A stretch of 64,000 nucleotides of DNA, taken from assembly GCF_026586665.1 (NCBI RefSeq), contig NZ_JAODIY010000011.1, positions 122,533 to 186,532 on the forward strand, given 5' to 3'. The position numbers were made by a program, and so were the translations under genes. Within the stretch, counting starts at the first letter, position 1. Each line of letters starts with the position of its first letter. Below, piece by piece: positions 24,638 through 29,654 of the stretch. A model generated the notes under the pieces. That model made no database searches. It worked only from the letters and a program-made list of their open reading frames with translations, and was not told the DNA's origin. The DNA comes from Halovenus rubra (lineage in GTDB: Archaea > Halobacteriota > Halobacteria > Halobacteriales > Haloarculaceae).

Positions 24638-24927
24638 CGAGGATTGTTCTCCAGCGCGCCCACACGCAAGCTGATTTTTTATTGTTAGTCCGACCACCAC
24701 CCACAGGGCTGAACTAGACACTTTCATAATCGGACCCCAGAGTTAAGTTATCAATATCAAAATTCTGTTTTTAGAAGGAGGTCAGAATTACTGCAATAAA
24801 TATTTACCAGTATCTAGAGTTTCAGGCCCTAAGGACCAGTTTTTTACCATCTCGGAGAAGATTATCAGTCATTGAAGTATCGTATTTTACCCCCAATATC
24901 TATTTTCAATACCGATAATTTGGAGCA

Positions 24928-24943
24928 CACCCTTATTAGGGTG
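24928..24943 (+). promoter_or_regulatory. Inverted repeat overlapping the presumed archaellin core promoter
   Basis: CACCCT and AGGGTG form a perfect 6-bp inverted repeat with loop TATT. The CTTATTA inside it is a TATA-like element about 53-59 nt before the first archaellin ATG, so the repeat may be an operator or the core promoter itself. Confidence 0.45.
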
Positions 24944-24963
24944 GCTAGGAGATGATGAGATAA

Positions 24964-24981
24964 GTCTGGTAGAGCCCAGAC
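24964..24981 (+). promoter_or_regulatory. Stem-loop in the archaellin 5' leader
   Basis: GTCTGG and CCAGAC pair perfectly over 6 bp around a 6-nt loop (TAGAGC), ending 9 nt before the ATG at 24991. The first archaellin lacks a good ribosome-binding site, whereas all later ones have one, so this structure may act in initiation or mRNA stability. Confidence 0.45.
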
Positions 24982-24990
24982 AGATAAACC

Positions 24991-25716
24991 ATGTTAGGAA
25001 ACGACAAAGAAACGGAACCCAATCGTGCCCAAGTTGGAATTGGCACGCTTATTGTGTTCATTGCGATGGTGCTTGTTGCTGCAATTGCCGCCGGTGTACT
25101 CATCAACACTGCCGGCTTCCTGCAGACTCAAGCCGAGGATACTGGGACAGAGAGTACATCACAAGTCGCCGACAATCTCAAAGTTATTACGGAAGTCGGT
25201 AACGTGAGTGCGGATGACAAGATAGATCAAGTCCGGCTGGGTGTCCAGCCCGCTGCCGGTGCTGGAGATGTCAATCTCGCTCAACTCACCTTGCAGTGGG
25301 TGAGCGACGATGAGTTTGCGAACATTATTGTTGGTAATGATACCAGCGACGGCAGCGATGCAGGTGGCACCGCTTCCGGTGATACAGACCCAACGGACAT
25401 TGCGGTTCTGAACGGAACTGGAGGAGTCCCAGAGAACGGGCAAGAGCGGTACGGAATTCAGGTTATCAAGGCAGAAAATGAAGACGATGTCGTGATGACT
25501 GATAGCTCCGACCGCTATGAGATTATTGTCCCACTCAATCACACAGCTGACAGCAACTTCAATAGCGGTGATTTCAACGGGAAGTTGCGGGCACTCGATG
25601 AGGGTGAGAGCGTCGAAGTGACTATCACGAACGAAGTCGGTGCACAGACCGTCTCGTTCCTGCAGGTCCCCGACTCACTCTCGGGAGACTCCGAGGGCTC
25701 AAACGTTAACCTCTGA
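24991..25716 (+). CDS. Archaellin 1
   Basis: 241 residues. A 12-residue leader ends NR, followed by [20 protein letters not shown], the class III signal peptide cut by prepilin peptidase PibD/ArlK, giving mature Ala13. The hydrophobic helix to about residue 50 forms the filament core, and the exposed beta domain carries several N-glycosylation sequons (NVS, NDT, NGT, NHT). It is the first gene of the array and has a leader peptide different from copies 2-5. It has no ribosome-binding site next to the ATG; a stem-loop sits there instead. The variable middle contains a Gly/Ser/Thr-rich stretch. Confidence 0.95.
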   Translation: MLGNDKETEPNRAQVGIGTLIVFIAMVLVAAIAAGVLINTAGFLQTQAEDTGTESTSQVADNLKVITEVGNVSADDKIDQVRLGVQPAAGAGDVNLAQLTLQWVSDDEFANIIVGNDTSDGSDAGGTASGDTDPTDIAVLNGTGGVPENGQERYGIQVIKAENEDDVVMTDSSDRYEIIVPLNHTADSNFNSGDFNGKLRALDEGESVEVTITNEVGAQTVSFLQVPDSLSGDSEGSNVNL

Positions 25717-25727
25717 GGTGAACAGGC

Positions 25728-26471
25728 ATGAAACAACTACTCTTCGACACGGACGAATCGACTGACCGCTCACGCGCACAGGTTGGTATCGGCACCCTCA
25801 TCGTGTTCATCGCGATGGTGCTTGTTGCCGCAATCGCCGCTGGTGTGCTCATCAACACTGCCGGCTTCCTGCAAACGCAAGCCGAAGACACGGGAACCGA
25901 GAGTACCTCACAGGTCGCCGACAACCTCAAAGTTATCACCGAGGTTGGCAACGTGAGCGAAGGTGACAAAATCAATTCAGTCCGGCTGGGTGTCCAGCCC
26001 GCTGCCGGTGCTGGAGATGTGAATCTCGCTCAACTCACCTTGCAGTGGGTGAGTCAAGACGAGTTCGCTAATATCATCATTGGCAACGAGAGTGGCGGGG
26101 CCGACGAGCTTGCGACAGGTGACGTTGCACCCGGCAACGTTGTTCTGGAGAACGACAATGGTACATACAACAACGGCGAGCAGTACCTCGTCGATGTCAT
26201 CAAGGCCGAAAACGAGGATGATATCGTCATGACCGACAGCTCCGACCGCTATGAGATTGTTGTTCCACTCGCCGCGGCCGCAGTTGATGCCAGTGATATA
26301 GACCAATCGAGCACAACTAGTCCTTTCGACCAGGGAACGCTCAAAGAGTTAGACGAGGGGGAGACAATTGAAGTGACTATCACGAACGAAGTTGGTGCAC
26401 AGACCGTCTCGTTCCTGCAGGTCCCTGACTCACTCTCTGGAGACTCTGCGGACTCAAACGTTAACCTCTGA
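25728..26471 (+). CDS. Archaellin 2
   Basis: 247 residues. The leader of 16 residues ([16 protein letters not shown]) is cut before AQVGIG. The N-terminal helix and residues to about 105 are nearly identical to copies 3-5. The variable stretch is about 110-205 and includes an Ala-rich piece, and the end ([20 protein letters not shown]) is conserved. Sequons are seen at NVS, NES and in the middle. GAGGTGA at 25715-25721 overlaps the previous stop and lies 6 nt before the ATG. Confidence 0.95.
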
Positions 26472-26482
26472 GGTGAACACAC

Positions 26483-27205
26483 ATGAAACAACTACTCTTC
26501 GACACGGACGAATCGACTGACCGCTCACGCGCACAGGTTGGTATCGGCACCCTCATCGTGTTCATCGCGATGGTGCTTGTTGCCGCAATCGCCGCCGGTG
26601 TCCTCATCAACACTGCTGGCTTCCTGCAAACACAAGCCGAGGACACGGGAACCGAGAGTACCTCACAAGTTGCCGATAATCTCAAAGTCATCACCGAGAT
26701 TGGCAACGTGAGTAGTGGAGACCAGATTAACCAGGTCCGGCTGGGTGTCCAGCCCGCCGCCGGTGCCGGTGATGTGAACCTCGCTCAACTCACCTTGCAG
26801 TGGGTGAGCGATGATGATTTCGCCAACATCATCGTTGGCAACGAGAGTGGGCAAAACAATCTTGCAACTGGTGACGTCAGGCCAGGAAATGTGGTCCTCG
26901 AAGATACTAATGGAGACTTCGGTGAGCAGTACCTCGTCGATGTTGTCAAGGCCGAAAACGAGGACGATATCGTGATGACTGATAGCTCCGACCGCTACGA
27001 GATTATCGTCCCGCTGGCCAATGAGACAGTTAGTGGTGATGAGCTAGATGGGAGTGATTCCTTCCTCGGTGAACTCAACCCGCTCGAAGAAGGTGAGAGC
27101 GTCGAAGTGACCATCACGAACGAAGTCGGTGCACAGACCGTCTCGTTCCTGCAGGTCCCCGACTCACTCTCGGGAGACTCCGAGGACTCAAACGTTAACC
27201 TCTGA
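26483..27205 (+). CDS. Archaellin 3
   Basis: 240 residues, with the same leader and N-terminal helix as copy 2. It differs mainly between residues 110 and 200, where it has NNLATGDVRPGN and an acidic GDELDGSDSFLGEL stretch. Mature protein starts at Ala17. It has sequons NVS, NES and NET. It is translated from a site like that of the other copies, 11 nt after the preceding stop. The block [15 protein letters not shown], shared by all copies, separates two variable sub-regions. Confidence 0.95.
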   Translation: MKQLLFDTDESTDRSRAQVGIGTLIVFIAMVLVAAIAAGVLINTAGFLQTQAEDTGTESTSQVADNLKVITEIGNVSSGDQINQVRLGVQPAAGAGDVNLAQLTLQWVSDDDFANIIVGNESGQNNLATGDVRPGNVVLEDTNGDFGEQYLVDVVKAENEDDIVMTDSSDRYEIIVPLANETVSGDELDGSDSFLGELNPLEEGESVEVTITNEVGAQTVSFLQVPDSLSGDSEDSNVNL

Positions 27206-27216
27206 GGTGAACACAT

Positions 27217-27951
27217 ATGAAACAACTACTCTTCGACACGGACGAATCGACTGACCGCTCACGCGCACAGGTTGGTATCGGCACCCTCATCGTGTTCATC
27301 GCGATGGTGCTTGTTGCCGCAATCGCCGCCGGTGTGCTCATCAACACTGCCGGATTCCTGCAAACACAGGCCGAGGATACTGGGACTGAGAGTACCTCAC
27401 AGGTCGCTGACAACCTCAAAGTCATCACCGAGGTTGGCAACGTGAGCGAGGGTGACAAAATCAATTCAGTCCGGCTGGGCGTCCAGCCCGCCGCCGGTGC
27501 TGGAGATGTGAATCTCGCCCAGCTCACCTTGCAGTGGGTGAGTGACAACGAGTTTGCCAATATTATCGTTGGTAACGAAAGTTCACAAAACAAGCTTGCA
27601 GCTGGCGACGTCGCACCCGGTGACATTGTCCTAGAAGACACTGATGGCACCGTGAATAGTAACGGTGAACAGTACCTCATCGACGTCATCAAAGCCGAAA
27701 ACCAGGACGATGTCGTCATGACCGACAGCTCCGACCGCTACGAGCTTGTCATCCCGTTAGCCCCAGCAGCAGCTGGCGACGCAGAACGAGACGCTACTAG
27801 TGACTTCAATCAGGGCTCGCTGGAGGCACTGGATGAGGGTGAGAGCGTCGAAGTGACTATCACGAACGAGGTCGGCGCACAGACTGTCTCGTTCCTGCAG
27901 GTTCCCGACTCACTCTCTGGGGACACCGCGGACTCAAACGTTAACCTCTGA
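27217..27951 (+). CDS. Archaellin 4
   Basis: 244 residues, same leader as copies 2 and 3. The variable region has SSQNKLAAGDVAPGD and an Ala-rich APAAAGDAERDATSDF stretch. Around residues 160-165 it has AENQDD where the other copies have AENEDD. Sequons NVS and NES are kept. The DNA of the first ~330 nt is almost the same as copy 2, which points to recent gene conversion or duplication. Confidence 0.95.
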   Translation: MKQLLFDTDESTDRSRAQVGIGTLIVFIAMVLVAAIAAGVLINTAGFLQTQAEDTGTESTSQVADNLKVITEVGNVSEGDKINSVRLGVQPAAGAGDVNLAQLTLQWVSDNEFANIIVGNESSQNKLAAGDVAPGDIVLEDTDGTVNSNGEQYLIDVIKAENQDDVVMTDSSDRYELVIPLAPAAAGDAERDATSDFNQGSLEALDEGESVEVTITNEVGAQTVSFLQVPDSLSGDTADSNVNL

Positions 27952-27962
27952 GGTGAACACAT

Positions 27963-28688
27963 ATGAGACAACTACTCTTCGACACGGACGAATCGACTGA
28001 CCGCTCACGCGCACAGGTTGGTATCGGCACCCTCATCGTGTTCATCGCGATGGTTCTGGTCGCCGCAATCGCCGCCGGTGTGCTCATCAACACTGCCGGT
28101 TTCCTGCAAACACAAGCCGAAGACACGGGAACCGAGAGTACCTCACAGGTCGCCGACAACCTCAAAGTCATCACCGAGGTTGGCAACGTGAGTGGCAGCG
28201 ACCAAATCAATTCAGTCCGGCTGGGCGTCCAGCCTGCCGCCGGTGCCGGTGATGTGAACCTCGCTCAACTCACCTTGCAGTGGGTGAGCGATGACGAGTT
28301 CGCCAATATCATCGTTGGCAACGAGAGTGGAGAAACGGGCTTGGCAGCAGGCGATGTTTCCCCCTCAAACGTTGTCCTCGGGAACGCCAGTTCACAGGAG
28401 CAGTACATTATCGATGTCATCAAAGCCGAAAACGAGGATGATATCGTCATGACCGACAGCTCCGACCGTTACGAGCTTGTTATTCCGTTAGAGCAAGCAG
28501 CGATTGAAAGCGCTGATATCGATGGCGGTACCACTGGCGACATCGATCAAGGGTCACTGGCTCCGCTTGACGAGGGAACGAGCGCTGAGGTGACCATCAC
28601 GAACGAAGTCGGTGCACAGACCGTCTCGTTCCTCCAGGTCCCTGACTCGCTTTCTGGAGACTCCGAAGGATCAACCGTCAACCTCTGA
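27963..28688 (+). CDS. Archaellin 5
   Basis: 241 residues; the leader begins MRQLLF instead of MKQLLF. The variable part holds [14 protein letters not shown] and [15 protein letters not shown]. Sequons NVS, NES and NAS are present. The C-terminal conserved end is slightly changed (SEGSTVNL). Spacer and ribosome-binding site are identical in layout to the earlier copies. Confidence 0.95.
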
Positions 28689-28699
28689 GGTGAACCCGT

Positions 28700-29446
28700 A
28701 TGAATTCACTAAGTATGGACAGGCAAGACAGCGCTGAGACACGTGCACAAGTGGGTATTGGTACCCTTATTGTGTTCATTGCGATGGTGCTTGTTGCCGC
28801 AATCGCCGCCGGTGTGCTCATCAACACTGCTGGCTTCCTGCAAACGCAAGCCGAAGACACGGGAACCGAGAGTACCTCACAGGTCGCCGACAGCCTTACT
28901 GTCATCACGACGGCAGGGAACGTCAGCGAAGACGACACGATTAACGCCCTTCGGATTGGGGTGCAACCAGCCGCTGGAGCGGGTGACATCAACCTTGCTC
29001 AGTTCACCATGCAGTACGTCGCCGACGAGCAGTTTGCCAATATCGTCGTCGGCAACGAATCGACTAAACAGGCAGAAGGGGACACGAACCCGGACAGTAT
29101 CGGTCTGACCAGCCAGAACGTCGAGAACAGAGCTGAGTTCTTGGTGGATGTCATCAAGGCCGAAAACGAGGATGATATCGTCATGACCGACAGCTCCGAC
29201 CGCTACGAGATTGTCATCCCGCTCGACGATACGTTGAACAGCACGACCTACCCGGTGTACGATAAAAGTGGAAGCTCAGTGGGTGACAGCTATATCGCTG
29301 GACAGGGTGCACTCCCACCAGGCCTCGACGAAGGTGAGAGTTCAGAGATTACCATTACCACCGAAGTTGGCGCACAGGCCGTGACGTTCATCCAAGTTCC
29401 GGACTCGCTGGCCGGTGAGGATGCTGGAAATATAATTAGCGTCTGA
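28700..29446 (+). CDS. Archaellin 6 (most divergent)
   Basis: 248 residues. The leader is different ([15 protein letters not shown], cut before AQVGIG), residues 60-105 diverge from copies 1-5 (for example [23 protein letters not shown]), and the end is AGNIISV rather than SNVNL. The segment between ([25 protein letters not shown]) is again nearly the same as in the others. It may be a minor filament component such as a hook-like or terminal subunit, by analogy with divergent last copies in other archaea; this is inference. Confidence 0.94.
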
Positions 29447-29464
29447 ACAGCCACTACGCGGTCT

Positions 29465-29491
29465 GTTACAGTATTTTGACGATCCTGTAAC
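29465..29491 (+). terminator. Inverted repeat after the archaellin array
   Basis: GTTACAG and CTGTAAC form a perfect 7-bp stem around a 13-nt loop containing TATTTT, starting 19 nt after the last archaellin stop. It may mark the 3' end of the archaellin mRNA or stabilise it. No long T-run follows, so termination is uncertain. Confidence 0.4.
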
Positions 29492-29654
29492 GAGGTTCTG
29501 GCTGTGGTATCAACCCATGAGTAGATATGTCTTACTTGCGTGGTCGACGAAAGGCAGTTCGCTGCTCTGTTAACAGTGTTGTACTACGGACAGATATCAC
29601 AGAGTGACCTGTGACGGAGACACGTTTTTGTCCGTTCAAAATAAACACTATGTC

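Follow-up and report, generated by a model that had tools for sequence, protein, structure and literature searches.

Six archaellin genes in an archaellum locus

A haloarchaeal DNA segment that carries six archaellin genes in one tandem array raises the question of whether the copies exchange sequence and, if so, whether the exchange generates new filament variants or keeps the subunits alike. The array occupies positions 24991-29446 on the + strand, on which all features below also lie, of the 64,000-nt stretch of DNA that was analysed (the window). It consists of the open reading frames F1 (24991..25716, 241 aa, without the 10-residue leader), F2 (25728..26471, 247 aa), F3 (26483..27205, 240 aa), F4 (27217..27951, 244 aa), F5 (27963..28688, 241 aa) and F6 (28700..29446, 248 aa). 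When the genome is searched with the Pfam Arch_flagellin model, F1-F6 all score 102-110 bits against the curated PF01917 cut-off of 29.5 bits that defines our archaellin call. In addition, a class III signal peptide and an N-terminal helix (RA-QVGIGTL...) are present in all six, confirming that the six tandem archaellins of the original prediction are real genes.

The array sits where archaellins are found in arl/che regions. Upstream of it lie cheA, cheB, cheW, a KaiC-type ATPase gene, an HTH gene and a DUF7521 gene, while a DUF7500 gene, a response regulator gene, cheC, cheD, arlCE, archaellin-like arlF/G, arlH, arlI and arlJ lie downstream. Pfam recovers CheC, the KaiC-type ATPase and the archaellin-like downstream genes, and neighbours without a Pfam result (arlCE, arlH, arlI and arlJ among them) were named from their sequences. 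The che and arl blocks are collinear between the window and two other Halovenus species. F1-F6 are thus best explained as the archaellin-coding portion of a haloarchaeal arl (archaellum) locus of ordinary type, and their products are predicted to assemble into the filament. In two Halovenus genomes, G001 and G003, the locus is split, and the genes for the arl machinery lie on a different contig from the archaellins or ~75 kb away from them.

All five junctions between the genes are 11 nt long and read CTCTGAGGTGAAC....ATG. Specifically, the TGA stop overlaps a Shine-Dalgarno sequence, GAGGTGA, at junction 1 (25714..25730) and likewise at 26469, 27203, 27949 and 28686, in accordance with the predicted merging of stop codon and ribosome-binding site. 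Similar junctions separate the archaellins of Halovenus G004 (11/11/15/11 nt) and H. aranensis (10 nt), and the uniform spacing is therefore a clade trait that was copied along with the repeat unit.

A putative promoter and leader (24913..24969) precedes F1, with GATAAT at 24914, a TATA-like TTATTAG at 24933 and AAGTCTG at 24962. The spaced GATAAT, TTATTAG-like and AAGTCTG blocks are kept before the first archaellin in seven Halovenus genomes whose arrays differ, and this region is possibly a site for an archaellum regulator together with a TATA box. Within 24900-29500, TTATTAGGG is found only once, and the promoter-like blocks precede F1 alone. Since the 11-nt junctions also leave no room for a promoter, the six genes are likely co-transcribed from a single promoter before F1, a reading that draws on conservation. 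A scan for bacterial-type promoters and terminators inside the array returned weak matches only (6 promoters versus 2.8 expected and 4 terminators versus 4.0), with a sigma-70 model that is not applicable to archaea.

The position of the array, between the DUF7521 and DUF7500 genes, is conserved, and its copy number is variable. At the orthologous position G004 has five archaellins and H. aranensis has three, giving six, five and three copies in three Halovenus species; in Halovenus G001, G003 and G014, archaellins follow matching upstream genes with other spacings. The original prediction that six is a large number is only partly right. Clusters of six archaellin-family genes each are present in G069 and G183, two species of another haloarchaeal genus in another family, one of the clusters being on a single-contig genome, and PF01917 matches reach 15 per genome when arlF/G-like genes and split matches are counted. 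Species are reported to carry one to seven archaellins (PMC8821640), with seven in Hht. litchfieldiae (PMC7349177; PMC6011602). Six copies are not exceptional.

We also considered whether the count of six could be an artefact of assembly, as the genome is a 48-contig draft and the array contains repeats of up to 119 nt. This candidate was rejected as very unlikely, because the repeats are short, the loops are distinct in every copy, and the homologous five-gene array lies within a 3.33-Mb contig of G004.

Sequence exchange between copies

Identity along the six copies follows a conserved-variable-conserved-variable-conserved layout. The predicted conserved-variable-conserved pattern is correct in kind, but an additional mid-domain block, common to all six copies including F6, splits the variable part. 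F2-F5 were expected to be near-identical at both ends. Over the first ~120 nt this holds, with 93-100% DNA identity, but their 3' ends are only 78-93% identical, and the closest 3' pair is F1/F3, the 3' end of F1 being nearly that of F3. Specifically, F1 and F3 share a 73-nt exact match in the C-terminal region (25624..25696 and 27113-27185). The longest exact repeat in the array is the 119-nt match between F3 and F4 (26483..26601 and 27217-27335), and the exact-match search also found 59 nt shared by F3 and F5 in the first beta strands (26756..26814 and 28236-28294). F2 and F6 share two candidate conversion tracts, one of 61 nt in the N-terminal region (25863..25923 and 28832-28892) and one of 59 nt in the mid-domain block, between divergent loops (26193..26251 and 29147-29205).

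Exchange was assessed from silent codons at positions with an identical amino acid in all six copies (97 polymorphic columns), so that protein conservation cannot create a clustering signal. Silent partner switches among F1-F6 number 529, compared with 683±22.6 in shuffles, and none of 5000 shuffles is as extreme. Significant silent runs change partner from tract to tract, linking F1-F2 at codons 88-108, F2-F6 at codons 46-65 (p=0.0002), F1-F3 at codons 232-252 (p=0.008) and F5-F6 at codons 51-65; the F2-F6 and F1-F3 runs back the 61-nt and 73-nt exact matches, respectively. Silent sites are clustered in the G004 array as well (261 switches versus 338±15, 0/2000), while the clustering is not significant among the three copies of H. 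aranensis (G002; 391/2000). Clustered silent matches with different partners in each tract point to short conversion tracts rather than to uniform divergence or a simple rate gradient. Sequence exchange between the copies, as originally proposed, is thus well supported. The same proposal held that uniform silent divergence together with an invariant copy number would speak against exchange; neither is seen, silent divergence along a single gene pair ranging from 0 to above 0.6, near saturation.

Alternatively, the copies could have been duplicated in tandem recently, their loops then diverging under diversifying selection, without conversion. This would account for the nearly identical 5' ends of F2-F5 and for the fact that the ends are always alike among the copies of an array. 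We give it very little credence. It needs uniform silent divergence, but the divergence is patchy along one pair and the closest partner changes between tracts. Furthermore, F6 belongs to an old lineage held in common with G004, yet it carries the silent codons of F2-F5 in its core.

Histories of core and loops

The comparison between species used 11 Halovenus copies, from one genome per species, and silent differences at codons whose amino acid is common to all 11. In the helix, silent divergence is 0.28/0.27 within arrays and 0.57 between the window and G004 (bootstrap interval of the difference, 0.15-0.44), so that paralogues are closer than orthologues at these silent sites. The silent difference of F6 from F2-F5 is 0.34 in the helix, 0.31 just after the helix and 0.20 in the mid-block, and rises to 0.64-0.65 in the first beta region and the C-terminus, whereas its difference from its orthologue g4E, the last gene of the G004 array, is 0.53-0.64 across helix, mid-block, first beta region and C-terminus.

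Constraint on codons or mRNA could instead keep silent divergence low at the gene ends. In G069 and G183 the gene ends are also low in silent divergence between species, and for this reason some silent constraint at the ends may exist. As an account of the array in place of exchange, however, constraint is highly improbable, because the helix codons differ twice as much between the window and G004 as within the array, and because it leaves the partner-specific tracts inexplicable.

The variable loops tell another history. In the loops, F6 and g4E share amino-acid identities of 0.52 and 0.47, compared with at most 0.28 between F6 and any other F copy, and both the loops and the C-terminus of F6 are orthologous to those of g4E. 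In the loop tree F6 pairs with the last G004 gene, and G004 genes A and D fall with F2-F5; this tree, from uncertain loop alignments, rejects a clade of F1-F6 (p-AU 0.003) and a clade of the G004 copies (p-AU 0.0008). The helix tree, by contrast, places F1-F6 in one clade (94/97). A clade of F6 with g4E is rejected in the mid-block tree (p-AU 0.003) and marginally in the helix block (p-AU 0.07). All these trees use short blocks, with weak support for several branches, and the p-AU values, from several tests, are uncorrected. Gene trees of different segments are thus discordant. The closeness of F6 to F2-F5 is confined to the N-terminal region and the mid-block, and the F6 loops go with G004, indicating that the core blocks spread after the species split.

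An AlphaFold model of F3 predicts a helix at residues 14-55, a beta domain after it and poorly defined loops at 120-147 and 181-194. The predicted helix and most beta strands fall in the conserved blocks, and the poorly defined loops in the variable parts. In the Halobacterium salinarum filament, all five archaellins are detected, and the regions specific to each archaellin are exposed to the solution (PMC11239922). Conversion in the array mainly homogenises the filament core, while the solvent-facing loops are old and retained rather than freshly shuffled. Such a pattern, in which the core is homogenised and the loops predate the species split, is concerted evolution and the reverse of what a mechanism that reshuffles variable domains would produce.

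The original prediction had suggested that the array could produce filament variants, or different subunit ratios, through gene conversion. Under such a reading, conversion or unequal crossing-over would reshuffle surface loops within a population, as antigenic or virus-escape variation. Past exchange between the copies is established, copy number differs among species at one locus, virus pressure has been connected with the variation of haloarchaeal archaellins (PMC6011602), and polyploid Haloferax volcanii carries out intermolecular gene conversion very efficiently, although in tracts much longer than those in the window array (PMC8223754). Nevertheless, an active variant generator is unlikely, and the suggestion is not borne out, since the loop identities pre-date speciation while the core was homogenised. 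In addition, all six frames are open, and a DNA search of the genome found no silent donor cassettes outside the array, the sole other match being 91 nt within a lipoprotein gene that is itself intact; the array therefore lacks the combination of silent donors and an expression site by which phase or antigenic variation is recognised. An extended version, in which exchange within populations changes loops and copy number against archaellum-binding viruses and a lipoprotein-borne archaellin domain acts as decoy or scaffold, is very unlikely.

Archaellin outer domains do occur on other anchors. Outside the window, the same genome encodes a 346-aa protein (G000:C44:23752-24789; L060:1253-2290) that begins with a Tat-type signal and a lipobox (MRRRRFLGTVSGISVTGVAGC). 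After ~140 aa of unlike sequence follows an archaellin outer domain, which matches PF01917 positions 37-159 at 37.8 bits, whereas the signal peptide and helix of archaellins are missing. From these features it appears to be an archaellin domain on a lipid anchor; its single-sequence fold (pLDDT 37) is too poor to interpret. Similar proteins are encoded in other haloarchaea (L084 in G006:C3, L082 in G245:C1, L083 in G245:C16 and L081 in G161:C23), where Tat-lipobox or zinc-ribbon/membrane-anchored N-termini are joined to archaellin outer domains, some of which retain a remnant of the helix end. A literature search for anchored archaellin-outer-domain proteins found no paper.

Taken together, we consider it very probable that the array is a six-copy set of arl archaellins evolving partly in concert, with core-compatible subunits of distinct surfaces that would share a mixed filament. 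Unequal exchange would have expanded the genes to six tandem copies; one promoter ahead of F1 would transcribe them, and the stop-overlapping Shine-Dalgarno sequences would allow translation of each gene. Ectopic conversion in short tracts, whose exact-match cores span ~45-120 nt, has homogenised the N-terminal helix, the mid-domain block and C-terminal parts among neighbours, while outward-facing loops, presumably kept distinct by selection, retain subfamily identities that predate the split of the Halovenus species. The resulting subunits would be compatible in the core, different on the surface and used together.

Comparison with known systems

The array clearly exemplifies a known kind of gene family and is no new switching system. 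It offers a clean natural case of one archaellin family in which the core has been homogenised and the outer loops have been preserved, and it warns that whole-archaellin gene trees mix two histories. It also bears on why euryarchaea keep several archaellins, suggesting that selection favours compatible cores and that diversity is maintained at the surface. Literature searches on archaellin with gene conversion and on archaellin in Halovenus returned nothing directly on point.

Among related systems, G069 and G183 resemble the window in having six PF01917 genes clustered near arlF/G-like genes, with significant silent clustering, but their proteins are ~320-350 aa long and the five long copies are spaced by more than 400 nt rather than 11 nt. 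Halorubrum lacusprofundi flaB1/flaB2 are likewise tandem archaellins, for which signal-peptide exchange and copy loss have been attributed to recombination (PMC7349177, PMC6011602); they are, however, two strongly divergent genes without multi-copy homogenisation. Recurrent concerted evolution of Alteromonadales fla genes gives tandem filament-subunit copies that are closer within than between species (PMC6053082), although these encode bacterial flagellin, an unrelated protein. Archaea are represented in that survey of concerted evolution by methanogen genes alone, and archaellins are absent from its list (PMC6053082). The window array also resembles Halobacterium salinarum ArlA1-A2 and ArlB1-B3, which are several near-identical archaellins with a conserved core and solution-facing variable parts (PMC11239922; PMC7349177), except that the five Halobacterium genes form two operons, whereas the six of the window form a single array, in which the junctions are uniformly 11 nt and the loops differ more.
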